Shown one piece after another: positions 4,170 through 28,200 of a DNA stretch of 38,008 nt. The stretch is taken from the IMG/VR virus record IMGVR_UViG_3300027580_000007, positions 1-38,008 of that record; one strand, written 5' to 3'. The notes beneath the pieces are model-generated. The model worked only from the letters and a program-made list of their open reading frames with translations. It did no database searches and had not been told where the DNA came from. The stretch comes from a virus. How positions within the stretch are numbered: position 1 is the first letter of the stretch; each line of letters opens with the position of its first letter. The position numbers and the translations under genes were made by a program.

Positions 4170-4940
4170 ATGACCTATGAAAAAGAATCCAGATATTTTT
4201 CTTATCCTGATGACAATGCAAACGATCCTTACGCTCGAATGGAAGCGGACGCAAAACGAAGAATTCAGTTTATAAAATCGAATATTCCTTTTTGGTGCAA
4301 TAGAAAAAATGAGACAATCACACCAAAGGCTTGTGCTCTTCGACATGAAGACGAGGAAGACCACGAATATTGTGCAATGTGTTGTTCTTTTGGAAGAGAA
4401 GCTAATCGAATTTTTCCTCCGAAGCCGCCAGAGAGCCAGTTTTTATCCAGTTTGAGAGAGATTGCAGAAGAGGAAAAGGGAAAATCACAAGAACAGGACC
4501 ACAAGATGAGTGATATTCCAGTAGCTGAAAGAGAAACTCGACCAATTTCTCTTGAAGCGTTTAATTTCAGGCCGCACAACCCTGGTGAAGTAAGTTGCGG
4601 CTGGAGACCTTCAAGCCCTAGTGTTACCTTGGCCGCGAATGTTCTCTACATTAACTCAGCCTCTATAAAGAAATTCCATCTTGAGCACCGTCAGCTTGTA
4701 TCCCTGCACTTTGATCCGGAAAAAAGGGCGTTCCTCCTCGACTTTTCCGACGATCAGCCTCCACATCTTCAACTGCGAGTGACCCACCGCAAGGGCGGCG
4801 ATGCCAAAGTCTCCTTGCGTGGCTTCCGCCGCAAGTTTCATTTCGACCTTGAGGGCAAATATAAGGTTGCCCTGTTTGATACAGTGCAGAATAAGATGCT
4901 TATCTTGCTGGACGAAGAAAAAATCAATGGAGATGTCTGA
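4170..4940 (+). CDS. Protein of unknown function with Cys cluster and beta-rich C-terminal half
   Basis: GGAGAGGAGAG before the ATG supports this start, and the product has 256 residues. The N-terminal part has Cys at 43, 55, 68, 71 and 72 with nearby His and acidic residues, a possible metal site (ending C-x-x-C-C). The C-terminal half (about 140-256) is rich in beta-hairpin-like segments, such as LVSLHFDPEKRAFLLDF and KVALFDTVQNKMLILL. This resembles a class of small hypothetical proteins with paired 'value, D-x-E-x-x, value' hairpins, but I cannot name the family. The first 400 bases are AT-rich and the last 350 GC-rich. The gene may therefore be a join between an inserted 5' part and a resident 3' part. 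Its stop overlaps the next start (TGATG). Confidence 0.7.
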   Translation: MTYEKESRYFSYPDDNANDPYARMEADAKRRIQFIKSNIPFWCNRKNETITPKACALRHEDEEDHEYCAMCCSFGREANRIFPPKPPESQFLSSLREIAEEEKGKSQEQDHKMSDIPVAERETRPISLEAFNFRPHNPGEVSCGWRPSSPSVTLAANVLYINSASIKKFHLEHRQLVSLHFDPEKRAFLLDFSDDQPPHLQLRVTHRKGGDAKVSLRGFRRKFHFDLEGKYKVALFDTVQNKMLILLDEEKINGDV

Positions 4941-5392
4941 TGGTATACGGAATCCTTATGTGTTCGACATGCGGGGGGAAGTATCACGAGGTCAAAGCGT
5001 ACAAATACGATCCTGACAAGCGCCCCAACGGGACATGGTTCCAGCTCCTTCACGTCTATCGCAGGGATTGTTGGGGTTCCTTTCCGGAGAACGACCCGGC
5101 CATTTCCGGGGCTGATCTCGCCTGTCCCGCCTGCGGCTCGGCCTACATGAACATCCACAATCGGATTACATGGCACGACGGCGACGAGAACATCGCCCGT
5201 GGCCGAGGGCCGGAGGCGTTCAAGGCACTGACCGCAAAGCCAAAACCGATTGGTGCGGAGTATTCGCCAGACTTTGACTTCTTCATCGAGCAGCAAACGG
5301 ACCCCTTCGCCCAGATGGGCAGGATAACCGCCGCGGCCAAGGCGACGAACCCCCATGTGAAAAAGAAGAAGGGCAAAGGCAAGAAGGCATGA
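4940..5392 (+). CDS. Zinc-ribbon-like phage protein (150 residues), unknown function
   Basis: The start overlaps the previous stop (TGATG), which indicates translational coupling. Two CxxC pairs (C8/C11 and C62/C65) make a plausible zinc ribbon, with an extra Cys at 44. The C-terminus is strongly basic (KKKKGKGKKA). Such ribbons often bind nucleic acid or act as small adaptors. Lying between terminase and portal, a packaging accessory role is possible but unproven. Codon use and GC match the core late genes, unlike the AT-rich insert upstream. The stop overlaps the next start (ATGA). Confidence 0.7.
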   Translation: MVYGILMCSTCGGKYHEVKAYKYDPDKRPNGTWFQLLHVYRRDCWGSFPENDPAISGADLACPACGSAYMNIHNRITWHDGDENIARGRGPEAFKALTAKPKPIGAEYSPDFDFFIEQQTDPFAQMGRITAAAKATNPHVKKKKGKGKKA

Positions 5393-5526
5393 GTGACAAG
5401 CACGGCAAGTCCGACCGTGATCTCAAGCTCGATGCGCTCATTGCCGCCCTGATTCGGATCTTTGGCTTTGGAAAATCCATGCTGGAGAAGGTCCGGGACG
5501 GGGAATACAACAAGATCCACAACTAG
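5389..5526 (+). CDS. Small protein (45 residues), unknown function
   Basis: The ATG overlaps the preceding TGA (ATGA), so it is probably translated by re-initiation. The product has a charged N-terminus and an amphipathic hydrophobic helix (LDALIAALIRIFGFGKSMLE), then a polar tail. It could be a small accessory protein of the packaging machine, but no family is recognised. It is the last gene before the hairpin that precedes the portal gene. Confidence 0.55.
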   Translation: MSDKHGKSDRDLKLDALIAALIRIFGFGKSMLEKVRDGEYNKIHN

Positions 5527-5573
5527 GCACTCGCCCCCGGGCAGCGCCGCTCATATTTCAAGGCAGCGCCGAC

Positions 5574-5615
5574 AAGGCCTCGCTTGGATAGATTCTTATC
5601 CGACGAGGCTTTTTT
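5574..5615 (+). terminator. Terminator-like hairpin that also covers the portal ribosome-binding site
   Basis: AAGGCCTCG (5574-5582) pairs with CGAGGCTTT (5604-5612) through one G-U. The stem continues inward as GGATA (5586-5590) with TATCC (5597-5601) around a 6-base loop, and a T-run ends at 5615. This has the form of an intrinsic terminator. The portal ATG begins at 5616, directly after the T-run. The only SD candidate, GAGG (5605-5608), lies inside the 3' arm. The element could therefore damp transcription, translation or both. Confidence 0.75.
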
Positions 5616-7595
5616 ATGGCGAATACGACTCGTATCAATCCCAAGCAGGTCATCAAGAAGAACGAGTGGAACCTGACCAGCCTCCCGCCGAAAGACGATC
5701 TGGATGTAGGGGGCTATTTCTTCCAGCTCTATCAGGCCGCTCTCGTGGAGCGTCAGCGCCTGGGCCTGAAAGAGCGGTGGCTCGATAACTACAGGCACTT
5801 CCGGCCCGGCAACGCTTCCATAACGGATCTTCTTCCGGGCGTCCGGAGGGGCAAGACCAAAAAGCTGTCCCTCTCCATTCTCACGGCGAACATCCAGCGC
5901 ACCGTCGCCAACATCACAGCCCGGGCCCCGCAGGCCACGGCCCATGCAGCAGGGGGGTCAAGCTCTCCCTATGATGAGGCCCTGACCCAGAAGCTCAAAA
6001 TCTGGAACAACAGCGAGAACCAGCAGGAATCCCTGGCCCGAAGCGTCACGCAGCAGGAGGTCTACGGCCCGACGATCGAGAAGATGGTCTATCATCGCAA
6101 GAGCCGCGCCCCCGACGCCGTGGTGCTCGATCCCCTGGCCTTCCTCCAGGCCCCCGGCTACTACAAGAACCCCAACGACGCGCCGTATGTGATCCATCAA
6201 TATTCCGAGGCAGTCAGCGTCGTGGAGAAGAAATACGGCGTGAAGGGGGTTCGGGCCGAGGACGCCTATTCCGTTCTTGGAGAGGAGCGTGAAAAGGATC
6301 GTATCGTTCCGGCCGGGACGAGTCAGCACTCCATCAATGCCTCCGGCAACTACGCCCCGGTCAAGCATCCCCGCCCCGATGGCCGGCCCTCACTTCAAGA
6401 CAACTGCCTCGTGATCGAGGTCTGGATCCGCGACTACTCGACCTTTACCGAGGTCATTCAGGAGGAGATCCGGGATCCGGAGACCGGCGAGGTCCTGGTC
6501 GAGGAGGAGACCCGAGAGAAATATCGCTATCCGGGCAACATCCGGGTCGTGACCATCACCAACCAGGGTCACATGGTCCTCGATGACCGGATGAATCCGA
6601 ACATCAATCCGGAGCTCCCCGACGCTCTCGTCCGCAACACCTACCTCTATGACAAGTATCCTTTCTTCAAGGGGGTCTCATACGAGGATCCGCACTCGCC
6701 GTGGGGCTTTTCCATGGCCGAGCTGGTCGGCGACATCAATAGCGCCATCGACGACCTGTGGTCCACGATCACCAACTACCTGCGGATGTGTCTGCACCCG
6801 CCGCTCGTGCTCCCGCGTGACACCGGCTTGAACGAGTCCCACGTCCGCTACACGCCGCGCCTCGTGTTGAAGCCGAACAGCTACCAGACCTCTCTTGGCA
6901 TCCGCTGGCTGGAGCTTCCCACGCCGCCTTCCTGGCTTTTCCAGGCCTTAGATACCCTGCTCACCTTCTTCGACCGCATCTCCCAGATCGAGGACGCACA
7001 GCGCGGCCAGCAGCCGGGTGGGGTCATCGCGGCCAGCGCGATCCAGCAGCTCCAGGAGCGGTCGGCGGTCTTGATCCGGGCCAAGATCCGGGCGGTGGAC
7101 CACTTGGTCCGCGAGCGCGGCAGGTGTTTCATCTCCTTTTACCAAAACTTCGCCACCGACCCCGAAAGCGTGGAGGTGAACGGGGAGCAGACGACGATCT
7201 GCGGCATAGATATGGCAGCCATGCAGTTTGAATACATGGTCGAGTCCGGGAGCACTGTGGCCCGGACGGAATCCCAGGAGCAGCAGCAAGCGGTGCAGCT
7301 CTACCAGCTTGGGGCGATCGACCGTCGGGCTTTGCTTGAAAAGGTCAATTTCGACAACTGGAGCGAGGTCATCGAGCGCATGGGCGAGAACGAGCTGGAC
7401 GCGGCCCTGAACATTCTGATCGCGGCCGGGATGCCGGAGGAAAGCGCCCTGGAGCTGAAAAAAGTCCTCATGCAGGACCAGGGCGGCCCGGGAGACAAAA
7501 AGAGCGGAAGCATCAATGGTCCTGGAGCTCCGGCAAAGCCCGGGACACCGAAGGCTGAACAAGGCCAGAACATGGGAATGGGTCAGATGGCCTAG
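5616..7595 (+). CDS. Portal protein
   Basis: This 659-residue protein sits at the portal position, between terminase and scaffold/capsid, and its length is typical of podovirus portals. The N-terminal region has a long helix of the type seen in portal clips (YQAALVERQRLGLKERW), followed by RHFRPGN. The middle is mixed alpha/beta. The helical stem-like region is around residues 440-560 (LFQALDTLLTFFDRISQIED, then AVLIRAKIRAVDHLVRE). The C-terminus is Gly/Pro-rich and flexible. Portals form the dodecameric ring at one capsid vertex through which DNA enters and leaves. No catalytic motif is expected. The ribosome-binding site is inside the preceding hairpin. Confidence 0.85.
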   Translation: MANTTRINPKQVIKKNEWNLTSLPPKDDLDVGGYFFQLYQAALVERQRLGLKERWLDNYRHFRPGNASITDLLPGVRRGKTKKLSLSILTANIQRTVANITARAPQATAHAAGGSSSPYDEALTQKLKIWNNSENQQESLARSVTQQEVYGPTIEKMVYHRKSRAPDAVVLDPLAFLQAPGYYKNPNDAPYVIHQYSEAVSVVEKKYGVKGVRAEDAYSVLGEEREKDRIVPAGTSQHSINASGNYAPVKHPRPDGRPSLQDNCLVIEVWIRDYSTFTEVIQEEIRDPETGEVLVEEETREKYRYPGNIRVVTITNQGHMVLDDRMNPNINPELPDALVRNTYLYDKYPFFKGVSYEDPHSPWGFSMAELVGDINSAIDDLWSTITNYLRMCLHPPLVLPRDTGLNESHVRYTPRLVLKPNSYQTSLGIRWLELPTPPSWLFQALDTLLTFFDRISQIEDAQRGQQPGGVIAASAIQQLQERSAVLIRAKIRAVDHLVRERGRCFISFYQNFATDPESVEVNGEQTTICGIDMAAMQFEYMVESGSTVARTESQEQQQAVQLYQLGAIDRRALLEKVNFDNWSEVIERMGENELDAALNILIAAGMPEESALELKKVLMQDQGGPGDKKSGSINGPGAPAKPGTPKAEQGQNMGMGQMA

Positions 7596-8816: not shown

Positions 8817-9797
8817 ATGCCTTTGCCGCTCACAGAACTGCAAGCGATGACGGACGACTATATTTACCAGCGCCAGCCGGTGGATATTTACTTTAAAAGT
8901 AACGTCCTGCTCTACAAGCTCCTTACCCGGGGCAACACCTATGACGGGGGCCTGAAAATTCAGGCCAACCTGGAATACGGCAAGTCCAATTCCGGGTCCT
9001 ACGGGCCTCGCGACGAGATGCCCGTCGATAAGCGGGAGATTCTGACTGCTGCGTTTTTCATCTACGCTGCCTACTTTACGACCCTCACGATCGACATGGA
9101 GGACGACTTGCAGAACGTCGGCTCCGATGCGGCGCTTGTCGATCTGGTTCAGGCCAAGCTGAATAACGCCGAGAAGTCCATCCGTGACGACATGGGCGGT
9201 CAGATCTACGGCACTCGATCGGCAAATATTGCCGCGGCCAAGGCCGCTGGCCGCAAGGATCCCCGGCCATTCATCGGTCTGGGCGACCTGTTCAACACCG
9301 ATCCCGCCACTCCCTACGGGGAGATCAAAGAGAACGACCTTGCCAACTGGAAGGCGAACGTTATCACTGCCGCCGAGACCATGAGCTTCGAGTTCATGCA
9401 GCGTCTGCGCCGCACCGCCAGCACTGACACGACCCGCGAGGGCAAGCCCGACCTGTACCTGACCACGGAGCTCCTCCAGGACGCTTTTGAGCGGACGCAG
9501 CAGCCCCAGGTCCGCTACTCAAACGAGGACCTGCTCAATGCCGGGTTCGATAATGTCATGTTCAAGAGCGCAGCGATGGTGGCGGACGACAATCAGGCCG
9601 CAGGGCACATCGACGCCCTGAACACCCGCTTTCTGGACATCAAGTCTCACAAAAAGCGGAACTTCACTAAGCCCGAGTGGCAGAGCCCCATCCGCCAGCC
9701 GGATACCGCCACGGCGAACATCCGCTGGGCCGGACAGTTGCTTTGCACCAACCGGAAAGCCCACGCCCGGGCGAGCGATGTCAGCGAGCCAGCCTAG
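8817..9797 (+). CDS. Major capsid protein
   Basis: The 326-residue protein follows the scaffold gene by 19 bases, with a perfect AGGAGG ahead of the start. Motif-free alpha/beta composition, an N-terminal LTELQAMTDDYIYQ helix and a long central spine-like helix (VDLVQAKLNNAEKSIRDDMG) suit an HK97-fold shell protein. Position, size and strong ribosome-binding site are the main grounds. It should form the icosahedral head. Confidence 0.85.
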   Translation: MPLPLTELQAMTDDYIYQRQPVDIYFKSNVLLYKLLTRGNTYDGGLKIQANLEYGKSNSGSYGPRDEMPVDKREILTAAFFIYAAYFTTLTIDMEDDLQNVGSDAALVDLVQAKLNNAEKSIRDDMGGQIYGTRSANIAAAKAAGRKDPRPFIGLGDLFNTDPATPYGEIKENDLANWKANVITAAETMSFEFMQRLRRTASTDTTREGKPDLYLTTELLQDAFERTQQPQVRYSNEDLLNAGFDNVMFKSAAMVADDNQAAGHIDALNTRFLDIKSHKKRNFTKPEWQSPIRQPDTATANIRWAGQLLCTNRKAHARASDVSEPA

Positions 9798-10979: not shown

Positions 10980-11339
10980 ATGACCTTTGATGAGCTTCTC
11001 AGCCGCCCTCTGGCGCTCATTCCGCAACAGGATGACCCCTCGCCTGCCGCCTTTACAAGCGTCTATGAACAAGGAGATGTATGGGTGAAGATTCGCGGCT
11101 GTGAGGACTGCCCGCCAGAGGTGCTCGCCAAATGCTGCGGCAACTGCCCCCTAGCCTCATCGGCCGGTTGCCTACTCCATCTTCTCAATAAACGAACCAG
11201 CCAGAAGCCCTACAACTGTGTGGTCAAGCCGACGCCTGAAAAGACGCTTTCCTACTGCGTCCAGGAATTTCAATGTGTCCGCGGCACGTATGAGGGACGA
11301 ATCCGCAGAGTGCGGGATAAACGCGGTGAGCTGATATGA
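10980..11339 (+). CDS. Cys-rich small protein, unknown function
   Basis: The 119-residue protein has nine Cys (41, 44, 52, 53, 56, 64, 80, 93, 99), including CEDC and CCGNC. The density suggests a zinc or iron-sulfur centre rather than disulfides, since most late phage proteins assemble in the cytoplasm. No family is recognised. Its stop overlaps the start of the giant repeat protein (ATGA), so the two are translationally coupled. It may assist folding or assembly of that protein or be a minor tail component. Confidence 0.6.
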   Translation: MTFDELLSRPLALIPQQDDPSPAAFTSVYEQGDVWVKIRGCEDCPPEVLAKCCGNCPLASSAGCLLHLLNKRTSQKPYNCVVKPTPEKTLSYCVQEFQCVRGTYEGRIRRVRDKRGELI

Positions 11340-14300
11340 AGCGCATTGTTCAGGCCGTGATGGTCCTTATCAGGAAGCTGATAGAGCTCCACGCCCGATT
11401 CAAAGCCTGGAAGCCGATCCACTTGTGCTGGTGGTTCGAGAAACACGGTCTCCCCATTCCGCCCTATCTGATTGGCGGATCGGGGCATTTTGAACAGGGA
11501 TATTGGGCTATAGCTCCGGATGATCCATCTACAATAGACGATCCATCTAGTTGTAGCTTTGATAAATATCCTTATGAAGAAACAGTAATGATTAGGGATA
11601 TTAAGCATCTGCGTATTGATTTTGGTGAAACAGGTGGTGCTAATGCTAAAGGAAATTTGCAGCTTTGGACTAATAACACAAATGATTTTTCCACAGCCAC
11701 TCAAGTAACGACAAGCAGTAGCCCTGTAAAGATTGTTCCGGATGCGAATAATATGCTTGCTGACGCAATCAGGACGACTACAAGTGTATGTGTCAATGCT
11801 ATTCAGGCAACTGTTATTGATGGATACTATATAGATGCATCAGATGAGTCACCTAAAATAGATTTTGGTGGTTGTCAGGCAGAAATGCAGTTCTGTATTC
11901 AGTGGGACGATACAGCAAAACATGGAGAATATCATTATTTCTTTCTTGCTTTAGATGGAACTGGATTTGATGAAATACATGACGTTATAGTTATTCAGTC
12001 GTTAAAGCCGTTAACTCTTTCTTTGAATGATGTTGTATCGAATTCAGAGACAACAATACTTAGTGGTGGAGAGCTGCTTGCAAAATATATTTTCAGTCAG
12101 GTGGTCGATTTTTCTTCTGCGGTGTCTTTGGCTGCGGTAATTCCATCAAATTATCAAATTGCAGATATAGCTTGTCAAAACATTGAACTCTCCGTCGAGG
12201 TTTCTTTTGAGGCGTTGAATGTCTCGCTGCATCATTTATTTCCTCAAAACACAGCTTCTTCATCGAAAGTTCAGGAGTTGTCCGGTCGGATAGGCTGGCT
12301 CGTAGACATTTCTCTGAATCCTGTAAAAGGTAGAGCAGAAGTCTCTCATGATGTCCTTTATGGTCGGGGAATCCTCACGAGATGTTCTAAACAGGTAGCA
12401 GTAGGGGGGACATCCTCGAGTGACATGTTTGTGCTTGTTGTTCTGGACGATGGGACAGTTGTTGGTTCTGGCGGCGACCCCTCCGGGGCGAGGTCGGGGG
12501 CCGAGGGCTGGACTGATATAGTAGCGCTCGCCGCAAGCACCGATCATGTTGTCGGAGTCAAAAGAGACGGTTCATGTGTCGCGGCGGGGAATAACTCTAA
12601 TTATGCCTGCAATGTGGGGGAGTGGAAGAATACAATTAGAGTTTATACTCACAGAAATGATTATACAATCGGATTAACACGCATTGGCGAGGGGTGGTCT
12701 AGCGATGGTGAACAGAATGTATATGATTGTGGAACATGGCATATGTGCGACAATATATACTCCTGGACAGATATTGTTGATATTGCAGCAGGAAGCGGAC
12801 ACGTCATAGCATGTGATGTAGATAGAAACATAAAGTATAACAACCGTGCAGGCAATGAAGATACTTGGAGCAATATAGTTCAGCTTGCGGCAGGCGACAG
12901 CCATTCAGTCGGTCTCCAGGGCGACGGGACCGTAGTTGCGACAGGGGATGATACCTACGGGCAAGTGTCTAGTGTTGACGGTTTAACAGGGGTTCTCGGA
13001 GTCCATGCCGCTCACAATCACACCGTTATTATTTACAATGACCTGACAATGGAGGCTTTCGGTGATGACAGTAATAGTATAGTGACTTGTATCAACAACT
13101 GGACAGAAGGATTCACAACACTTGATTCAGAACCAGGAGTAGTCGCTGCATTAACCCTTGAGCGCGATTTGAATGTCTGCGGTGATAACGCTACTTTTGA
13201 TATAAGCTACTTATTAAATCATTGGCTAGTTCCTTCTTCGGTTGCTTCTTTAACAGAAGTAGAGAATCATGCACGTTTTAGAGTTCCTTATGAATTTTCT
13301 CTTTTCTCTGTTGTTTCTAATGCAGAGATCAATTCTGTAACGATAACTAGTTTTGAAAACCTCGTTACAATTCAGCCTTCTTCCATCTCTTTGCCTTCCT
13401 CCATTCAAGAAGTGTATGCCGAACGCTTCACAAGCCTTGCAGAGCTCGTATTTACCGGGGTTCAGTCCACAACAAGCGTGGGTTCTATTCCGATGGAAGG
13501 GACCCGCCAGCTCTCCTTCAAAAACGTAGTTTCGCGTCCCCAATGCACCCGCTCCTTCATGTGGGGTGGCCGCTCCGGTCGCGGCCTCCTGATGCGCTGC
13601 ACGAACTCGAAGCTCACGCAGGGCGGGCAGGATTATGATGGACAGGAAAACACCCTCATCTACGCAGTTCGTCAGGATGGGCGCGTCGAATCAATTCAGG
13701 AAGGAATCGACACTTCTACATATAGCGATGTCTATTTGGTCCCGCGTGAGCAGTGGACCCATGCGGCGAAGATTTCCGCCGGTCACATGCACGTCGTCGC
13801 CGTTCGGGCCGATGGCTACTCGATGGTCGTGGGCGACAATACCTACGGTCAGGTCACGGACATGGATACCTGGAGCGGCGGCGTGGCAGGGGTCGCCTGC
13901 GGCTACGAACAGACCCTCGGCCTCATAGTAGACGGGACAGTGAATACGGCTGGCAGGGACGATTACGGCCAGCTCTCTTGCGTCTCCACCTGGACCGACA
14001 TTTTCGACCTGGACGTGGGCAAGTGTCATTCCCTCGGCTGTAAGACGGACGGCACGGCCCTAGCCTGCGGCGCGGACAGCGGCGAGGACGCCGACCTAGG
14101 ACAATGCGACGTGAGCGGCTGGTCAAACATCGTCCAGGTCGCTGCGGGGAATTTCTTTTCGGCTGGCCTTGGGTCCGACGGAACCGTGGTCGTGACGGGG
14201 CAGTTCGCGGGTGATCCCTCCGGCTGGACGGACATCATCGAGATTTGCGCCTACAACGAGACCCTTCTCGGAATTGACTCCTCCTTCAACATTCACGCGG

Positions 14301-16270
14301 AAGGCGATGCCAGCACCCGCACTGAAATATCCTGCGTTCAAAATAACTGGACAGGTCAGTTCATCCGGGCCGCTGCCGGGAATGTTCACACCTTGGGAAT
14401 GAAGCCGGATCGGTCTCTCAAACTTTGCGGCAATGTTTTGAGCGACCCCGATGTGGATCATTGGTTCAACGCCCGTGTTTGGCCCCTCGCTCTTTCGGCG
14501 AGCACCGAAGTCGGCAATATGCACGGCAACGCGCTCCAGCAGCTTTACGAACTTGGTATATCGAGCGTATCCGCCGACTCTCTCATCACTCAGGCCGCTG
14601 TTTCCGCGGCCAAGACCGTCATGTTTTCCGGGGTCACATCCGCCAGCGAGATTGTAAATATCGCAATCGGGGCCCTCAAGGACGTTGGCTTCGATGACAT
14701 GGCCTCGCAGACCGAAGTGGTCAACGTGGTCTTTTCGGTGCTGCGCCAGCTCTATTTCCCGAAAGTGGAGCTCTCTTCGGACGTGCTCGCCGCCGTGGTC
14801 AGGGCCGTCAGGATCGCCAGACAGAGCAATCTCCAATCCGCGGCCCAGGTAACAGACCTCGTGCTGCGAACTGTGAGCTTCCAGGGGCTGCACTCGACAG
14901 ATGTTGAGGCTAAGGCCCAGATCACGGGGCTGGCTATATCCCTCCTGCGGACGCTCCAGGTGGCGGGGCCGATCTCCGACAGCACGATCATAGAGCCCCT
15001 GATGAACGTAAGGCGGCTCCTGGCCGTCGAGGATCCCGGGATCGACAGCTCGGTGCTCGAGGCCTACCTCGGCGTGATCCGCAAGCTCATGGCCTATGAT
15101 GTGGCTGCGCCCTCAAAGGTCTCGGCCCCCCTGGCTTACGCCATCCGTGCTCTCATGGGCTTGGACGCCCAGGTCGATTCGCAGGTCCTGGAAGCCACGC
15201 TGATAGCTGTCCGGGGGCTGCATGAGGCCAAGGTCGAGAGCGCCGCGATGGTGGCCCAGGCCTTCGCCCAGGCCATCCGGAATTTTCATCTTGAAGGGCT
15301 TGTCCTGTCTTCTGAGGTCGTCAACGCAGCGATGGTCGCTGTTCGGCAGTGTCTGGGCCAGGGCCCGTCCACCGTGGCTTCCATATCCGACGCCATCCTC
15401 CAAGCGGTGCGCGAAGTCGCGCCCGACTCTCTCACCGTGGATAGCGAGGTCGCCCACGTCCATTACTCCCTGCTTCGCCATCTCCTTCTCAACGATGCTC
15501 GCTCGCCGGTCGAGGTCACGAACGCGACTTTCGACATTTACGGCAAGGCATTCTCTCGCCCCGAGGACGTGGGAACAGTGGCCCAGGTAACGACCCTGGT
15601 TGTCTCGTTGCTGCGAGCCGCTCTTGTGGCGCAGAGCGTGACCGCCGGGTCAGAGGTCAAGGATGGCCGTCTTGGGCCCATACGGCTGCTCGCCTCGAGC
15701 GATGTGGATGCCGCGTCGGAAGTGACCGCTCTCGCCATTCAGAGTGCCCTCCTGCTCCATATAGACGGCCCCTCGGTTCCTGCCAGAGCGGATAACGTGG
15801 CTCTGTCCCTGATCCGGGCCCTGGAGCTGAATGAGATCGACGCCGGGTCCGAAGTCGTGGACGGTCTGCTCCAGGCCATTCGCCATACACCTCTCCATCC
15901 TTTGCTCGCAGGGTCGAGGGTGGGAAGCCCCTATATGGAGCTTCTGCAGGGGCTTAGAGGCGAGAACCTGACAGTGAATACGCTAATTCAAAATGTATTG
16001 GTCGAAGCAGCTACTTTATTTCGTCTCTATGAAGTGAATTGCGACACCACCATTTCACAAACTATAATTGAAATGAAACGAGGATTGTTTACAGGTATAA
16101 TTCAAATTGATTCACAAATTACAGATATGAAAGTAATACTAGCATCAGTAGGACAAAAAGGTCGCATTAATGTCAGGTTTTATGGAAAATCTTACACAGT
16201 TAAATACTCCGGACAAAAATCAGAAATAGACAAAGAAGGGTTTGTTCCTGAAATATACTTTAATGCATAA
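11336..16270 (+). CDS. Giant tail/fibre protein: 22-residue repeats with two RCC1-like propeller blocks
   Basis: This 1644-residue protein has two blocks rich in RCC1-type repeats, at about residues 360-600 and 765-1035. Typical phrases are DGTVVATGDDTYGQVS, WTDIVDIAAGSGHVI and GHMHVVAVRADG. RCC1 repeats fold as beta-propeller blades. Residues about 1050-1604 are about 25 tandem repeats, nearly all 22 residues long (for example GLHEAKVESAAMVAQAFAQAIR, ALELNEIDAGSEVVDGLLQAIR). They share a 'L-x4-V-x-S-x-S-E-V-x3-h-x2-h-R' pattern. Similar but weaker repeats precede each RCC1 block. The protein therefore looks like a rod made of 22-residue units with two propellers inserted. Residues 1-60 are basic and aromatic. 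Late-module position and size point to a tail fibre or spike that may bind receptors. Nucleotides about 11.5-13.45 kb and 15.97-16.27 kb are AT-rich, unlike the rest. Confidence 0.75.
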   Translation: MKRIVQAVMVLIRKLIELHARFKAWKPIHLCWWFEKHGLPIPPYLIGGSGHFEQGYWAIAPDDPSTIDDPSSCSFDKYPYEETVMIRDIKHLRIDFGETGGANAKGNLQLWTNNTNDFSTATQVTTSSSPVKIVPDANNMLADAIRTTTSVCVNAIQATVIDGYYIDASDESPKIDFGGCQAEMQFCIQWDDTAKHGEYHYFFLALDGTGFDEIHDVIVIQSLKPLTLSLNDVVSNSETTILSGGELLAKYIFSQVVDFSSAVSLAAVIPSNYQIADIACQNIELSVEVSFEALNVSLHHLFPQNTASSSKVQELSGRIGWLVDISLNPVKGRAEVSHDVLYGRGILTRCSKQVAVGGTSSSDMFVLVVLDDGTVVGSGGDPSGARSGAEGWTDIVALAASTDHVVGVKRDGSCVAAGNNSNYACNVGEWKNTIRVYTHRNDYTIGLTRIGEGWSSDGEQNVYDCGTWHMCDNIYSWTDIVDIAAGSGHVIACDVDRNIKYNNRAGNEDTWSNIVQLAAGDSHSVGLQGDGTVVATGDDTYGQVSSVDGLTGVLGVHAAHNHTVIIYNDLTMEAFGDDSNSIVTCINNWTEGFTTLDSEPGVVAALTLERDLNVCGDNATFDISYLLNHWLVPSSVASLTEVENHARFRVPYEFSLFSVVSNAEINSVTITSFENLVTIQPSSISLPSSIQEVYAERFTSLAELVFTGVQSTTSVGSIPMEGTRQLSFKNVVSRPQCTRSFMWGGRSGRGLLMRCTNSKLTQGGQDYDGQENTLIYAVRQDGRVESIQEGIDTSTYSDVYLVPREQWTHAAKISAGHMHVVAVRADGYSMVVGDNTYGQVTDMDTWSGGVAGVACGYEQTLGLIVDGTVNTAGRDDYGQLSCVSTWTDIFDLDVGKCHSLGCKTDGTALACGADSGEDADLGQCDVSGWSNIVQVAAGNFFSAGLGSDGTVVVTGQFAGDPSGWTDIIEICAYNETLLGIDSSFNIHAEGDASTRTEISCVQNNWTGQFIRAAAGNVHTLGMKPDRSLKLCGNVLSDPDVDHWFNARVWPLALSASTEVGNMHGNALQQLYELGISSVSADSLITQAAVSAAKTVMFSGVTSASEIVNIAIGALKDVGFDDMASQTEVVNVVFSVLRQLYFPKVELSSDVLAAVVRAVRIARQSNLQSAAQVTDLVLRTVSFQGLHSTDVEAKAQITGLAISLLRTLQVAGPISDSTIIEPLMNVRRLLAVEDPGIDSSVLEAYLGVIRKLMAYDVAAPSKVSAPLAYAIRALMGLDAQVDSQVLEATLIAVRGLHEAKVESAAMVAQAFAQAIRNFHLEGLVLSSEVVNAAMVAVRQCLGQGPSTVASISDAILQAVREVAPDSLTVDSEVAHVHYSLLRHLLLNDARSPVEVTNATFDIYGKAFSRPEDVGTVAQVTTLVVSLLRAALVAQSVTAGSEVKDGRLGPIRLLASSDVDAASEVTALAIQSALLLHIDGPSVPARADNVALSLIRALELNEIDAGSEVVDGLLQAIRHTPLHPLLAGSRVGSPYMELLQGLRGENLTVNTLIQNVLVEAATLFRLYEVNCDTTISQTIIEMKRGLFTGIIQIDSQITDMKVILASVGQKGRINVRFYGKSYTVKYSGQKSEIDKEGFVPEIYFNA

Positions 16271-16281
16271 GGAGAATTTCA

Positions 16282-16494
16282 ATGGCACTTAAAACGATCA
16301 AGCCTTTGAAGGTGGAAAAGGAATTGGGTTTAAAGTTCGGCCGCAAGAAACAAAAAGGAGACCAGAATGTCGGAGATCAACACAAAGAAGGAGCGAGAAA
16401 ATCTTTACATGAAGCTGGATCAACTGGATCTGGTGACCAAATTGAAGCCCTTGCTCGAGAAGCAAGGCTACATTCTCAGGGCGGACGACGCTAA
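16282..16494 (+). CDS. Possible small basic protein overlapping the next gene
   Basis: AAGGAG lies 7 bases before the ATG at 16282. The first 27 codons (basic, K-rich) lie in otherwise free sequence, while the remaining 43 overlap the 269-residue gene in another frame. The overlapping part is Gly/Ala/Arg-rich with no recognisable fold. It may be a short coupling peptide or a remnant. It sits in the AT-rich join after the fibre gene. Confidence 0.35.
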   Translation: MALKTIKPLKVEKELGLKFGRKKQKGDQNVGDQHKEGARKSLHEAGSTGSGDQIEALAREARLHSQGGRR

Positions 16495-17176
16495 GTTCGT
16501 TCCCCGCAATGTCGCTACGGCGTGGGACGCGCCGTGGATGTATGTGCAGTTTGATCCCATAGGAAGGTGCGACCTTTACCACCGGGTCTTTTACAACGTT
16601 CTCGGCCATATTCACAGCTTCTGCCGACAGTGTTGGAAGGTCGTGGTCCGGCCCTTCAATCTGGAACAACTTTTCAATCTCTATGAGCTGCAACGGGAGA
16701 TGGGAGTGCCCTGCAAGTGCGGCATAGAGCTACGAAGAACGGTCGAGGGGCTCTACGGGGGCTATTTCTACACCCGGTCCAGGGATGAAGGCGAGGCGAG
16801 ATTCCGAGAGGTCCGCAGCCTCGTGGACGAACATTTGAGCCCCCACGTCCCGGTTATTCTCAAACGCTACTGTACAGAGTTCGAGTGCGGCGGGGAGCAG
16901 ATCAAAGGGCTTGGACCAAGCGACGAAATACCGGAAAGCGTTACTGCACAGGAGCGGGAGATGGAAGCCTACATCGAGGCTCATTTCCCTCGCATATCTC
17001 CTCAGACGCCAATGCCCAAACATCTGAGAGCTTACGTGATGAAGAAGTGGATCCACCACGCCGCCGAGCACGGGGACAAAACCTATCTGCGATTCACGAA
17101 TGGAGAAAAGCTCTTCCCGAGCTACGTCACCTATAACCCTAACGATGGAGGCAAAGAGTATGGCGCTTATCCATAA
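16367..17176 (+). CDS. Cys-containing phage protein (269 residues), unknown function
   Basis: AAAAAGGAG precedes the ATG. The product has FCRQCWK (C86/C89) followed by VPCKCG (C116/C118), plus YCTEFEC (C169/C174). This set could bind zinc or an iron-sulfur cluster. The rest is helical and soluble with many aromatic and charged residues. No family is recognised. It lies between the fibre gene and small structural genes and overlaps the next start. An enzyme or assembly factor is as likely as a virion part. Confidence 0.65.
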   Translation: MSEINTKKERENLYMKLDQLDLVTKLKPLLEKQGYILRADDAKFVPRNVATAWDAPWMYVQFDPIGRCDLYHRVFYNVLGHIHSFCRQCWKVVVRPFNLEQLFNLYELQREMGVPCKCGIELRRTVEGLYGGYFYTRSRDEGEARFREVRSLVDEHLSPHVPVILKRYCTEFECGGEQIKGLGPSDEIPESVTAQEREMEAYIEAHFPRISPQTPMPKHLRAYVMKKWIHHAAEHGDKTYLRFTNGEKLFPSYVTYNPNDGGKEYGAYP

Positions 17177-17537
17177 CAATGTATTCGATGCGGCCCTGAA
17201 CTACGTTGCGAGCAACGCAAGCGTGGCCGAGGTCCGGGACGGCACGGACACGGGGCTCGTGACCGGCGTTTCTTTGGACGGAGGCAATTTTGGCTCTCCC
17301 TTGGACAATGCGGCCTCCAGTGGAGGCGGTCGAAAGATTACCTGTCTTGTGTCCAGTGCCTCAGACATGAAGAACATCAGCGTGGGCACTGCGGGCTCCG
17401 CTCAGAAGGTGGCGCTCATCGACGCATCCACGAACGTCCTGGTCGAGGCCAGTATTACTAGTGCCCCGATCAGCCTGGGCGCTTCGGATCAGGTCAACTT
17501 GAGCACTTTCGACACAATCCTCAAAGACCCCGTTTAA
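17160..17537 (+). CDS. Small structural protein (125 residues), unknown
   Basis: GGAGG lies 8 bases before the ATG at 17160, which is preferred over an earlier in-frame ATG lacking a ribosome-binding site. The gene overlaps the end of the previous one by 17 bases. The product is rich in Ser, Ala, Val, Asn and Gly, with a Gly-Gly-Gly loop and alternating beta segments. This is typical of phage tail or fibre-associated proteins. No motif names the family. Confidence 0.6.
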   Translation: MALIHNNVFDAALNYVASNASVAEVRDGTDTGLVTGVSLDGGNFGSPLDNAASSGGGRKITCLVSSASDMKNISVGTAGSAQKVALIDASTNVLVEASITSAPISLGASDQVNLSTFDTILKDPV

Positions 17538-17546
17538 GGTGAAGCT

Positions 17547-17885
17547 ATGACTACGGAGCTCGTACTCGACAGGAAACCGATTGAGCGCGGGACGCTCGTG
17601 GTAACGGCCAAATTCAGGAATGAAAAAGGCGATGCCATGACTCCCAATTCAGGCCTTACTTGGTCTCTGTATCGCAGGGACGGGAGTTACGTGAACACCC
17701 GGCAGCAAGTAAGCATGGCCTCTTCTTCGGAAGTGGACATTGTGCTGACGGATGCGGACCTTCCCCAAGGGCGGCTCTTTCTGCTCATCGAGGGCACGTA
17801 TAACTCCGAGATTGACGGCCAGCCCTATCAGGACCTCTCGATCCGCGACGAGTGCGAGTTCCAGGTCAAACCTACAATCAATTAG
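17547..17885 (+). CDS. Small beta-rich structural protein (112 residues)
   Basis: The frame starts 9 bases after the previous stop. The product has an immunoglobulin-like order of strands: GTLVVTAKFRNEKGDAM, LTWSLYRRDG, SSEVDIVLTDADLPQGRLFLLIEG, then DECEFQVKP. Small Ig-like or beta-sandwich proteins are common adhesive parts of phage tails. The fold is inferred from strand pattern only. Confidence 0.6.
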   Translation: MTTELVLDRKPIERGTLVVTAKFRNEKGDAMTPNSGLTWSLYRRDGSYVNTRQQVSMASSSEVDIVLTDADLPQGRLFLLIEGTYNSEIDGQPYQDLSIRDECEFQVKPTIN

Positions 17886-19170: not shown

Positions 19171-19911
19171 ATGACACTCAGATTAACGACGGGGCTCAGA
19201 AACGAGATTCTGGGCAAGGCCCCTTCCTTCCCGGATCTATCCAAGATCATCGTTGACGCGGTGGGAAACACGGATTTCGTGCCTTCCACGTCGAGCGCGT
19301 CCGGCAATCCCGAGATCCAGAACACGGTGGACGATCTGTCCATATACGCCGCCGGGGACATGATCACGATTGGAGGTCCGAACAGCAACAACGGGATCTT
19401 TGTCGTCCAAAACGTCCAAAGCACGGACATCATCGAGGTGCAGGAAGAGGTCGTGGCCGAGACCGGCCAGGCCGCCTTCCTGGGGATCGTAGATGGCGGT
19501 TCCCTGCGGGAGATCCTCAAGAACGGGATCCTGGTTATCTTCGAGGGAACGCAGCCCTCTTCCGCGGAGAAGGACGAGTCTGCCTACAAGATCCTCTGCA
19601 AGATCACCCTGGCTTCAGGGACGTTTTCGGCTGGCAGCGGCCTGAACGGGATCAACTTCGAGCCGGTGTCCGGGGGAACCCTTTCCAAGAAGAGCGGCGA
19701 AACGTGGTCCGGTGTGAATGTCGCAACCGGTGTAGCGGGATGGTTCAGGTTCTACGACAACGACTACGTGACCGGCCCGAGCCAGACCGCCAAGCGGTTC
19801 GACGGAGCTATTGCGGTTTCCGGAGCACAGCTCAACCTGACCAACACGTCCCTCTTCTCCGGCGTGGAGACCACGCTTGGGACCTTCAACGCGACCATGC
19901 CGGCCTCGTAA
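19171..19911 (+). CDS. Tail-associated structural protein (246 residues)
   Basis: The frame begins after GGAGG and is followed after 10 bases by the CAP-domain protein gene. The product is soluble and beta-rich, with many Gly, Ser, Thr and Asn residues (SGTFSAGSGLNGINFEPVSGGT). The composition is virion-like. No signal peptide, Cys pattern or catalytic motif is seen. It may be a fibre or baseplate part. Confidence 0.6.
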   Translation: MTLRLTTGLRNEILGKAPSFPDLSKIIVDAVGNTDFVPSTSSASGNPEIQNTVDDLSIYAAGDMITIGGPNSNNGIFVVQNVQSTDIIEVQEEVVAETGQAAFLGIVDGGSLREILKNGILVIFEGTQPSSAEKDESAYKILCKITLASGTFSAGSGLNGINFEPVSGGTLSKKSGETWSGVNVATGVAGWFRFYDNDYVTGPSQTAKRFDGAIAVSGAQLNLTNTSLFSGVETTLGTFNATMPAS

Positions 19912-19921
19912 GGATAGAGCC

Positions 19922-21922
19922 ATGCCAACGCGCATCCGCCTGTTTGGAGATATACAGCGAGCGGACCAGTACCGCTTCACTGCCTACAACCGCCATCTGG
20001 CGGATGCGCTCAAACTGCGTTCTTTTCAAAATCTGGCTATCTACCGGCACATGGTTCGCATTCCGGATGGTGGGATGATCGACATTGTATGCCACCATGA
20101 CGACAACGAGATTTGTATCCATGTTCCGCCAAGGCCTCATCCGGAGCAGAAGCAACCGGAGCATAAGGGCGGAGCAAATCTTCTGATCATGCTTGGTGAC
20201 GATTTTGCTGGCTATCACTTTTTCCTTTGGGATGCTTACGGAAATGCTCAGGTAGGTCCGATCAGGACTGCGGATACTCTGGAGGAGATCTATTTGCAGT
20301 TTCCTCCGGCCATGAACCAGGACGATGCCTACATTTATGGGACCCAGGCAGGTGTGGCGCAGGGTGATTTCTACCGTTACGAGGGGACTTACTTTACACA
20401 AAAGCTATTTGGTGATGTGGCTTGGTCAGGAGACTATACTGATTCCTTTACTAGAACGTATGAGCATCCTGTTGAAGGGACAATCAGTTGTGAAGCGAAA
20501 ATTGAACAGAACGAATATTTTACCTCCGAAGAAGTAGAATTTGATGGCCCTCAAAGATTCGAGGGATGCAAAGAACATATGCTGTCACTTGAACAAAAAT
20601 TTTGGGATTCTGCATCACCTTACGTAATACGCTATGCACATCGACTTATAGATAGAAATACAGGAATATTTGTTGGGAAGATGCCACCAACGATTCTTGT
20701 AAAAAACATTCCAGTGTTTGAAGGCGACCATTACAGCGCAAGCGCGACCAAAATAGCTGAAACGACACATAGGGATTACCGGATACTGGATGCAATCAAC
20801 TGGACTTCCTATGTTCCACATAAGTTTCGAGACATTGCTGAAATAGCCCATAGCTGGACCTGTCCTCTAGGCAACCTCAATCTCATACGCCGTAATCCAC
20901 ACTCAGAAGTGGATGCAAATAAGCCGTGGCATTTCTCTTATTGGGACGCAGCCATGACCCCGCAGCCTCAAGATTCAGAGAGCGTCTATCTTGTGACAAC
21001 AATACGAATAAGCACAGAAAGGGATGAGGCAAGCAGGTTATTTTATCCAAATATCGAGAAGAAGTACCCAAGCGGTTTCCCTGATACAAGCGATGGGAAC
21101 CCCATTGGCAACAGAACCATCGAGTTCCGGTGCTGGCGAGAAAAGGAGCTGATGTTCCAAATCTACTCCGTATCGCTGGTCGAGTGGGCGGGGAAGCCCG
21201 TAAGTGACGGGTCGGCAAACTACGAGGAGCTCTACAAGGCGGATTGCACTTGGATCGCGGCAGGATGCGGCCGCATGACCAATGAAGACGATCCGGCACA
21301 GCAGGAACGGTCCCCAGAGTTCGAGGCAGCTATTGCCAAACTCATTGATCAGGCTGTTCTGGATCAGTTCCAGAGCGGAAAGATCAACGAGCACCGGCAT
21401 TATCGCGGCTATATCCACGGCTATTTTTTCGACCTGGGGATCCAAGACATATTCGATTATCCCCGCTCTCGGGACGCGGAACGGCTCAAGCTCCTCAAAT
21501 TGGTCAACGAGGCCAGGGCGAACAATGGTCTGGATCCGGTCAAGATGAATTGGGACTTGGAGAAAGCCGGGATCCGTTTCACCTTCGACATGATCGACGA
21601 TTTTCATATCGGCCACACCGGGCAAGACGGCAGCACTCCCGTCCAGCGCCACGAGGAGGCAGGTCTTAGCATAAATGCGGATGTGCATACAACGGAGATG
21701 GAAAACAATAACGAGTTGCCTTACGTCGGCGGGGAAAATACCGGCTACGGACCTTCCTACACGGCAGAGGAGATGTTCGATCTTTGGATGAACTCCACCG
21801 ATCATAAGGCCAACATCCTCGATACACATTGGAATTACGGCATGATGGGTGCGGATTGTCGGGATGCCTTAGACGGGAATACCTATTGGGCGCAGGAGTT
21901 CGCCTTCAACCCGAACTATTGA
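19922..21922 (+). CDS. Virion-associated protein with C-terminal CAP (SCP-like) domain
   Basis: AGGATAGAG before the ATG at 19922 supports this start (666 residues). The last 140 residues match the CAP superfamily: LVNEARANNGLDPV, then HTGQDGSTPVQR, GGENTGYG, and AEEMFDLWMNSTDHKANIL. The two His of the CAP pocket and the GEN motif are present. The N-terminal 520 residues have no recognised domain; they contain HPH and aromatic-rich beta segments. CAP proteins are usually secreted and bind lipids, metals or polysaccharides, so here it may touch the cell surface during adsorption. Bases about 20.38-20.98 kb (residues about 155-350) are AT-rich compared with both ends, which suggests recombination. 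Confidence 0.8.
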   Translation: MPTRIRLFGDIQRADQYRFTAYNRHLADALKLRSFQNLAIYRHMVRIPDGGMIDIVCHHDDNEICIHVPPRPHPEQKQPEHKGGANLLIMLGDDFAGYHFFLWDAYGNAQVGPIRTADTLEEIYLQFPPAMNQDDAYIYGTQAGVAQGDFYRYEGTYFTQKLFGDVAWSGDYTDSFTRTYEHPVEGTISCEAKIEQNEYFTSEEVEFDGPQRFEGCKEHMLSLEQKFWDSASPYVIRYAHRLIDRNTGIFVGKMPPTILVKNIPVFEGDHYSASATKIAETTHRDYRILDAINWTSYVPHKFRDIAEIAHSWTCPLGNLNLIRRNPHSEVDANKPWHFSYWDAAMTPQPQDSESVYLVTTIRISTERDEASRLFYPNIEKKYPSGFPDTSDGNPIGNRTIEFRCWREKELMFQIYSVSLVEWAGKPVSDGSANYEELYKADCTWIAAGCGRMTNEDDPAQQERSPEFEAAIAKLIDQAVLDQFQSGKINEHRHYRGYIHGYFFDLGIQDIFDYPRSRDAERLKLLKLVNEARANNGLDPVKMNWDLEKAGIRFTFDMIDDFHIGHTGQDGSTPVQRHEEAGLSINADVHTTEMENNNELPYVGGENTGYGPSYTAEEMFDLWMNSTDHKANILDTHWNYGMMGADCRDALDGNTYWAQEFAFNPNY

Positions 21923-25294: not shown

Positions 25295-28200
25295 ATGCCG
25301 CAGGAAGGGAGCCCCACCCTCAGTCAGATCCGCAGGGATTACCGCGAATACGACAATATGAACGACAGCGAGCTGGCCGAAGCCCTGTATCTCAAGTACC
25401 AGCCGAATGAGGACTTCGATGTCTTCTCCCGGGGTATTGGCTTCGATGAGGAGGCTCAGACCGCCCGGTTCTCGCCCAAAGAGCTCAATCAGCGCAAGCA
25501 GAACCTTGAGGAGAAAAGCTCATTACATCGGGGCTTCTATGGCGGCGTGGAAAAGACGAAAGCCCTTGGGGCCGGAGCTCTTGCCGCCGTTGGCTCGGCC
25601 ATGGAGGAAACGGTCGGCGTGGGCGAATCCCTGCGGGATTGGGGAATCTCTGAATACAAGGAGAACATGCGCGAGGCGCAGATCAAGTATCCTCAGAAAA
25701 CATCTTTTCAGGAGCTGATCGACGACCCTTCCGTTTCCGGGGCCCTCGATTGGGGGGCCTACACATTGGGCGACCTCGCCCCGACCATTGCGGCCACTTT
25801 CGCGACAGGCGGCGCGGGTGGACTTATGGCCGGGACTGCACGTGCCGCCGGAAAGAGGGCCCTTTCCTACATGAGCCGCAAGGTCGGCACAGAGGCTATC
25901 GAGAAGGGGATCAGGAACGCGGAGCGAAAGCTCATCAACCGCCAGCTCGCCAAGGGCATTGCGGAGGACGTGGCCCAGAAGATGACCACTCGCGGCCTTG
26001 GGGCCCAGGCCGGGATGGTGGCAGGGTCTGGGGCGCTTGAGACCGGCGGCATGTATGGCGAGGCCGTGGAAGAGCTCGGCAGGGAAGAGGCCAATCCGTT
26101 TACGGCGCTCACCTTGGGCGCGGCAGCCGGAGCGGTGGAGCTGGCCGGTGGTAATATTCGGGTGCTGAGAAAGATTTTTGGGGATCAGATCGACGATGGG
26201 GTCAAGTCCGCGATCGAGCTTGCCAAGCGAGACGCCAAGGCCCGTCCCGCCGCGATCCGGTTTCTCTCTCGCGTCGTCGGCGAAGCCGCCCGGCAGGCCC
26301 CAGCGGAAATGGGCCAGGAGGCCGTGCAAGAAGCTCTCGCGATCACCAACATGAACTTTCAGGACCCCGATGCCGAAAGCATCCTCTCGCGGGAGAATGC
26401 GTGGCGGATCATCGAGGCCGGGGCCGCTGGCGGTTTGGCCGGTGGTGTATTTGGCGGGGCTGGGACGGCGACCACGGAAGCCGCCCAGAACGCCGGGGTC
26501 ATGCAAGGGGCTGGCAGGGCCAAGGACCAGATTGACGAACTCTCGCAGCGGATAGGGAGGCAGAAGGCGCTGCGGGAAAGGCTTCCCGAATCCCAACGCG
26601 CCGAGGTTGATAAGCGGATTCAGGAAAACGAGCAGAAGGTCGCCGATTTGCAGAATAAGGTTCTTGCCAAGCAGAAGGGTAAGATCAGCTACGAGGAAGC
26701 GGCCAAGCGGCTAAGTAGCGAGGCCCCCAAGCCGGACGGAAAAAAGACCACGCTCAAGACCGTTCGTAAGCTGGTGAAGAACGACCGTGTTTCCGGGGAT
26801 CAGTTCGGCGTGGACGAGGCCGCGCTCATGAAGCACATCGAGGCCCGGCAGCAGGAACAGGCCAAGGAGCTGCAGAAGCAGGGCCTTGATCAGCTCGATA
26901 CCTCCAAGAGCTATTTCGATCAGGCCGGGGATCTCGTCGGGTTTGCCGATCAGCAGCAGGAACTCAATCAGGATACGATCGACCGCGGCCAGGAGCTGGT
27001 CGGCTCGCTCAAGACCGAGTATGAGAGCTTGCTGGATCAGGGGAAAAAGAAGGAGGCCGAGCAGCTACGCGCCCGGGCCAAGGAGCTTTCTGATCGCGTG
27101 GGGATTCCCGTTCACTTACAGAAGGCCAAAGAAGAGAAGCCCACGCAGCGGGCTCAGACAGAAGAGCAGCCCCTCGACGAGTTCGAGTCCGCCCCAGATC
27201 TGACCGGGCAGAACGTAGCCTTTAGCCTGTCCGATGATCTTGTTCCGGTCTCCGAGGCCGGAGAAAAAATCGCCCAAATTCAGGCTCAGGACCCCTTCCA
27301 GGCCAAAAGCCGGGCCAAGATACAAATCGACACCGCGTGGCAGCACACGGGCGAAAATGTGACCGAAGACGAGTTCGCCGCGGCCATGGGGAGCGTTATC
27401 TCCAACCGGGCCTACTTTACTGATGAGCCGAACAAGGTCACCCAGGCTGGCCTCTCCGCGCTCTCCGAGTGGAAGGCAGAGCGGCAGTCCGCGAAACACA
27501 CCTTTCCCGCTCCCTCCATCACGGACCCCAGGCAGCAAGCCTCCGGACGAGCTCTGGAAGACATGGACGCCGGGACGAGAGCCGCCTACCTCACATCCGG
27601 ATACGATTTCCTGCTCAATTCCGTGGACAAGGAAGGTAACATGCTGGCGGACAAGTTCCTCCCGGAACGGCTAGGCGTGGATGCCGAGACTGTCCGCGAG
27701 ATTGCCGAGCTTGAGAAGCAGCGGCTCCTGGAGGAGCAAGGCGTCTGGGACGACAGCTTTCAGGAAACGCTTCGCACCAGCATGAGCGAGAAGTGGACCC
27801 GGCAGGAGAAGAACAAGCTCGCCACGGACCTTGTGGGGCGGCTGCGCCAAGCAGTCCAGGCCTTTGAAGAGGTCAAGAAAACCTCCGAGAACCCGCGCCA
27901 GGACTACATTGAAATGCACCGGGAATTTGATCGGGTGGCGGTCAAGAGCGGATCCCGGGCGGCTATGGAGCCCTCCGAGGAGCTTGACCGGCTCAGGGCC
28001 GACTACATCAAGACCCGGGCCGAGCTGATCGAGGCTGAGAAGGGACGGGCCAAACAGTCAGCCGAAGCGCCCCAGGTCAAAAAGACCTTGCCTATGGATT
28101 TTGTCTTCGGCCAGGGCGGAACCCCGGATAAGGCTGAACGCGTCCAGGCGGACAACACCTTCGAGGCCATCGTCCGGGGCGAGCGGACGGCCACCTCCCG

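Follow-up and report, generated by a model that had tools for sequence, protein, structure and literature searches.

A 1644-residue protein encoded in the window, a stretch of 38,008 nucleotides of viral DNA (IMG/VR record IMGVR_UViG_3300027580_000007), carries in its last third a long array of tandem 22-residue units that probably serves as the shaft in a long tail fibre of modular design. The unit is a member of a repeat family that the curated libraries lack, and the fibre would further comprise an N-terminal attachment segment, RCC1 binding modules and an exchangeable tip. The coordinates of these features and of the neighbouring genes are given in Table 1.

Table 1. Features of the putative fibre cassette and its surroundings (window coordinates).
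Feature	Position	Strand	Basis
SU10-type tail adaptor protein gene, 232 aa	10266..10964	+	PF24175 SU10_adaptor, E 2.3e-13
119-aa cysteine-rich protein gene	10980..11339	+	ATGA start/stop overlap with fibre gene; ORF list and sequence
1644-aa repeat-bearing putative long tail fibre protein	11336..16270	+	Adjoins adaptor region; missing here in L002 and L003-L008
Putative N-terminal attachment motif, helix-like stretch then WKPIHLCWWFEKHGLPIPPYLIG	11336..11479	+	Residues 1-48; heads about 19 other distinct phage proteins
First RCC1-type beta-propeller block	12356..13225	+	Residues ~341-630; PF13540
Second RCC1-type block	13556..14470	+	Residues ~741-1045; PF25390, PF13540, PHROG 16766
Repeat array, 24 full and one partial 22-residue units	14495..16129	+	Residues 1054-1598; self-offset scores, profile parse
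C-terminal tip	16130..16267	+	Residues 1599-1644; end of low-GC3 stretch starting near residue 1560
269-aa partner gene with conserved Cys/His, cassette marker	16367..17176	+	Nine IMG/VR loci, 48-71% identity
145-aa partner gene	17100..17537	+	Beside 16367 homologue in L009, L010, L011, L012, L013, L025, L026, L028
112-aa gene, cassette end	17547..17885	+	Homologue in L025, tblastn E 9e-6

The 22-residue repeat array

The array was parsed with an iterated circular 22-position profile. The spacing between units was exactly 22 residues in 20 of 24 cases and 23, 24, 24 and 25 residues in the remaining four. The consensus reads x-[SA]-x-S-[EQ]-[VI]-x-x-A-x-[LMI]-x-A-[LI]-R-x-L-x-x-x-[DGN]-V, with V/I6, R15, S4 and L17 as the best-conserved positions. 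The earlier note on this DNA had described about 25 tandem 22-residue repeats with the pattern V-x-S-x-S-E-V ... h-x-x-h-R, and its coordinates, period and motif agree with the parse. When residues 1051-1604 were scored against themselves with BLOSUM62, offsets of 22, 44 and 66 gave 0.271, 0.245 and 0.041, the next best offset gave −0.437, and the maximum in 500 shuffles was −0.326. Self-alignment thus displays the 22-residue period at three offsets that exceed every shuffle, and the periodicity is genuine and well beyond chance. Since Ala, Val, Leu and Ser are abundant in the units, a low-complexity or compositional artefact was considered, but this explanation is refuted to near certainty: shuffles of the same composition all failed, S4, V6, R15 and L17 are conserved in a position-specific manner, and the array is recognized by independent profiles from other phages, as described below. 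At the nucleotide level TRF and blastn detected no tandem repetition in the array DNA, which indicates that the copies are old.

Similar units had also been reported ahead of both RCC1 blocks, leading to the suggestion that the unit is the basic building block of the whole fibre. Single units in these segments are convincing by eye (e.g. residues 710-731, QSTTSVGSIPMEGTRQLSFKNV), and they appeared to belong to the family when scored with a profile that contained them. With profiles built only from other phages or only from the main array the segments stayed within the shuffle range, the independent profile giving 6.2 and 3.2 against shuffle maxima of 7.0 and 10.6. Their membership in the repeat family is unproven, and with no significance for these units the building-block idea was not sustained.

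Searches of the repeat units against Pfam, NCBIfam and the PDB gave nothing credible and nothing over a cut-off, in line with the earlier failure to assign a known repeat family. In PHROGs weak, chance-like matches were found (best E 1.7e-5), with no stretch passing alone and with functions of the matches that were unknown or implausible. The PDB profile search listed REST corepressor 1 and symportin at E 0.19-0.91, which we judged to be chance. A leucine-rich repeat, one of the folds suggested before, is not supported: the consensus L11xxI14xxL17xA19xD21V22 does not follow the LxxLxLxxN order and no LRR model occurred among the Pfam matches up to E 1. A literature search found no paper on a 22-residue phage fibre repeat. 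Repetitive fibre shafts as such are already known; what seems not to have been described before is the repeat unit, together with its partner genes and the attachment motif.

The repeat family and its cassette in other phages

Relatives of the array were reached only via gene 16367 and the N-terminus of the fibre protein. The window repeats gave no tblastn match in 50,697 phage records, nor did those of loci L025 or L026; the L010 repeats gave none in plasmids and a direct IMG/VR scan with the repeats none either, and scans of genomes using the 16367 alignment or the units of Octadecabacter Antarctic DB virus 2 (DB2, L017) returned no relatives. Homologues of the 16367 product were found first in L009, L010, L011, L012 and L013 and afterwards in L025-L028. 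Six cysteines (C68, C86, C89, C116, C118 and C169) and H72 are invariant in five homologues; the protein matched no family and is possibly zinc-binding.

A protein with 20-23-residue units occurs near the 16367 homologue in seven of seven IMG/VR loci with enough flanking sequence (L009, L010, L011, L013, L025, L026 and L027), a count that excludes L012 and L028, whose flanks are too short to judge; as in the window, a 17100 homologue is present as well, except in L027. All seven were counted as carriers on the basis of a profile scan and a gapped parse of L027. The scan covered open frames with a minimum length of 120 codons in the loci collected by then. Frames of L013, L017, L010, L009, L026 (two frames), the window, L025 and L011 scored 40.7-148.9, and all others −8.3 or lower; most of the scoring families had supplied the profile, whereas L025, L026 and L011 had not. 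Next in the scan, at −8.3, came L027, which scored low because its units have 20 residues instead of the 22 of the window; a gapped parse recovered them with a score of 157.7. With a profile built from L013, L026 and L017 only, the window array scored 92.8, whereas 100 shuffles reached 14.8 at most; in the reverse test a profile of the window units recognized L009, L010, L013 and L017. On these profile comparisons, the 22-residue unit is a real repeat family common to several phage lineages.

The proteins around the units differ. Two RCC1 blocks accompany the array in the window, whereas the 16367-bearing loci scanned gave no RCC1 match. In L025 a concanavalin A-like lectin domain (PF13385, E 1.2e-7) precedes the repeats and in L011 a DUF2341 domain, and these domains support the reading as a modular tail fibre. 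The L011 protein (4811-6664) has few 22-residue units, followed by a second repeat type, DATLPxMTAxxxG. DB2 gp11 (URC15513.1) shares with the window protein 22-residue units of the form V-E-S-A-S-E-x-x-x-P-x-[IV] ... L-T-A (example: ESASEVTAPAISEVHALTANSV) and a position downstream of an SU10-type adaptor (E 3e-37), the gene order being adaptor, 'tailspike', repeat protein and 'tail fiber'. It differs in its length of 508 aa, in having about nine units with Pro and Gly in most of them, and in that no RCC1 blocks and no WKPIHLCWWF motif were seen; a 16367 homologue was not found in the stretch examined. Its label 'ribonuclease E' is to be regarded as a misannotation. Thr-rich repeats of 22-23 residues that resemble the DB2 units (ITGQQTHELTA...) occur at L019:4152-7493; at 35% identity (E 5e-5) their kinship with the family is weak, and the ungapped scan did not separate L019.

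Comparison with close relatives delimits the cassette. In L002, with an 84% identical major capsid protein, the adaptor homologue is followed by homologues of 17852 and 18121, and in L003-L008 (60% identity) by that of 18121. Since both lack the 10980-17885 segment, this segment is a gained or lost cassette. Elsewhere it lies between the adaptor and 18121 homologues (L009), before the adaptor (L025) or after the 19171 homologue (L011), so the combination of repeat protein, 16367 and 17100 recurs across genomes in different gene orders. It is conceivable, though we regard it as tentative, that the undescribed repeat serves as an interchangeable shaft across lineages, with the 16367 and 17100 products acting as its dedicated assembly or tip factors in a portable fibre cassette.

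Some further features of these genomes were recorded. In L004 (2826-4799) and L008 (1893-3866) the terminase large subunit match splits at residues 35/36; the two parts lie some 510 bases apart, which would fit an intron, an intein or another insert at this point. The match in L002 is likewise in two pieces. Among named phages, Methanosarcina virus MetMV has the closest major capsid protein to that of the window (8817-9797; 35% identity). The window also encodes a 3397-aa product (25295-35488) that is probably a large ejected or polyvalent protein and has an LPD38 domain close to its end (PF18857, E 1.2e-32). Within the structural gene region lies the gene of a 681-aa protein (19877-21922) whose residues 540-651 match the CAP (cysteine-rich secretory protein) domain (PF00188, E 1.1e-7).

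Fold of the repeat units

The fold of the units was modelled with AlphaFold2. Six window units with a nine-row alignment gave one helix per unit at a pLDDT of 48.6, and six L013 units with 14 rows gave short strands near unit positions 5-7, 10-14 and 17-21 at a pLDDT of 51.0. The solenoid proposed in the earlier note was not borne out by these two low-confidence models, which contradict each other (helix versus beta-helix-like). The helical model would correspond to an alpha or alpha/beta solenoid in which each unit contributes an amphipathic helix of about 14 residues, capped by S2-x-x-E5 and packed into a HEAT-type superhelix, which would act as a flexible spacer or binding surface. The hydrophobic moment of the window, L009/L025 and L010 units, which peaks at 100 degrees as expected for an amphipathic helix, agrees with such an arrangement. 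We nevertheless consider it rather unlikely, given the low pLDDT of the window model and the beta structure of the L013 model. Moreover, the homologous units of L013, L026 and L017 contain 1.4-1.9 Pro or Gly residues per unit within positions 4-17, often at position 9 or 13, which would break the helix, and the two-residue loss in the 20-residue units of L027 would rotate a helix face while preserving strand alternation.

Because helix-compatible and Pro/Gly-rich units belong to one family and L027 tolerates the shortening, we lean towards a beta-rich structure, which may be a beta-helix or a trimeric beta rod. Each coil of a right-handed parallel beta-helix takes up about 22 residues. A Foldseek search with the L013 model, itself of low confidence, gave no match at E ≤ 0.001; the non-significant matches included several tailspikes with a right-handed parallel beta-helix and pectate lyase-type proteins, and such proteins had no significant sequence or fold match to the repeat units.

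Mosaic composition and probable role of the putative fibre protein

The first 48 residues of the protein resemble the starts of proteins in L014-L016. A scan with the N-terminal alignment of the latter retrieved 25 loci with about 19 distinct proteins, which share the motif [WY]KPIHLCW-x-F-x(7)-P-x-Y-[FL]-I. The search pattern itself partly dictated KPIHLC, but not the downstream P and Y. The bodies behind the motif differ and many are strongly repetitive, with best offsets of e.g. 6, 14, 20, 31, 32 and 52 residues. Some share body domains with each other, and a clear 22-residue array was found in none of these about 19 proteins. A specific docking of the motif to SU10-type adaptors is not supported generally, since most searched motif-bearing records have no detectable adaptor; one was detected in only two (G006 and G007), and some records may be incomplete.

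Directly before the motif-bearing gene, and often overlapping its start, small cysteine-rich proteins are encoded in the window and at L029:2817-3164, L031:4164-4517, L044:4031-4426 and L052:3990-4409, as well as in L030. The protein of the window gave no credible Pfam match. In L033, L040, L043, L046, L038 and L042 the same slot is occupied by methyltransferase-like proteins (no Pfam match over the cut-off). The gene ahead of the motif gene may be a dedicated fibre modification gene.

Residues 341-1045 were assigned to RCC1 beta-propellers because the RCC1 repeat model was matched over its cut-off. PF13540 gave E 3.2e-24 and 84.5 bits against a cut-off of 22, with residues 514-543 as the best stretch, and the PF25390 RCC1-like domain matched residues 797-913 under its own cut-off. 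The two blocks are 28% identical to each other. GC3 varies along the fibre gene: residues 1-40 have 0.80, residues 41-720 0.2-0.6, residues 721-1520 0.5-0.9 (mostly 0.7-0.9) and residues 1561-1644 about 0.2 (0.20-0.23). The terminase, portal, capsid, 18121 and 25295 genes lie at 0.71-0.81. GC3 is backbone-like at the start and in most of residues 721-1520 and low at about residues 41-700 and in the tip, as expected if body and tip were exchanged while the start stayed constant.

In phage SU10 (Kuravirus), six trimeric long fibres dock on the adaptor, which is gp11; gp12 and gp13 are the long-fibre proteins and gp17 is the nozzle (PMC9509320). The fibre gene of the window, separated from the adaptor gene by one small gene, occupies the same slot after the adaptor as gp12/gp13, which supports the phage tail context suggested in the earlier note. 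The likeness seen is one of gene position, and the consulted text of PMC9509320 describes no 22-residue repeat for gp12/gp13. The capsid gene is also close by and RCC1 domains are known in phage proteins of unknown role, so that the product could instead be a head fibre, a decoration, another surface appendage or a secreted protein that is not part of the virion. We consider these options improbable in view of the adaptor gene upstream, the match to the SU10 long-fibre slot and the homologous DB2 repeat protein, which lies among genes annotated as tailspike and tail fiber.

As a long tail fibre the protein would be part of the virion and attached to it by the N-terminal motif. The two RCC1 propellers would be binding modules strung along the fibre, with a role in receptor binding suggested by analogy, the 22-residue units would lengthen the chain in the form of a rod, and its C-terminal tip would be an exchangeable end. 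Host contact would then be relayed via the fibre to the adaptor.

In other phages the family recurs next to these same partner genes, which suggests that its unit most likely represents a so far undescribed element from which the rod-like portion of tail fibres is built. Fibre shafts set the reach of a phage and its host contact, and in environmental phages many fibres escape annotation, since no model matches their repeats. The unit profile, together with the 16367 marker and the 23-residue attachment motif, would allow such fibres to be found and compared across metagenomic phages.
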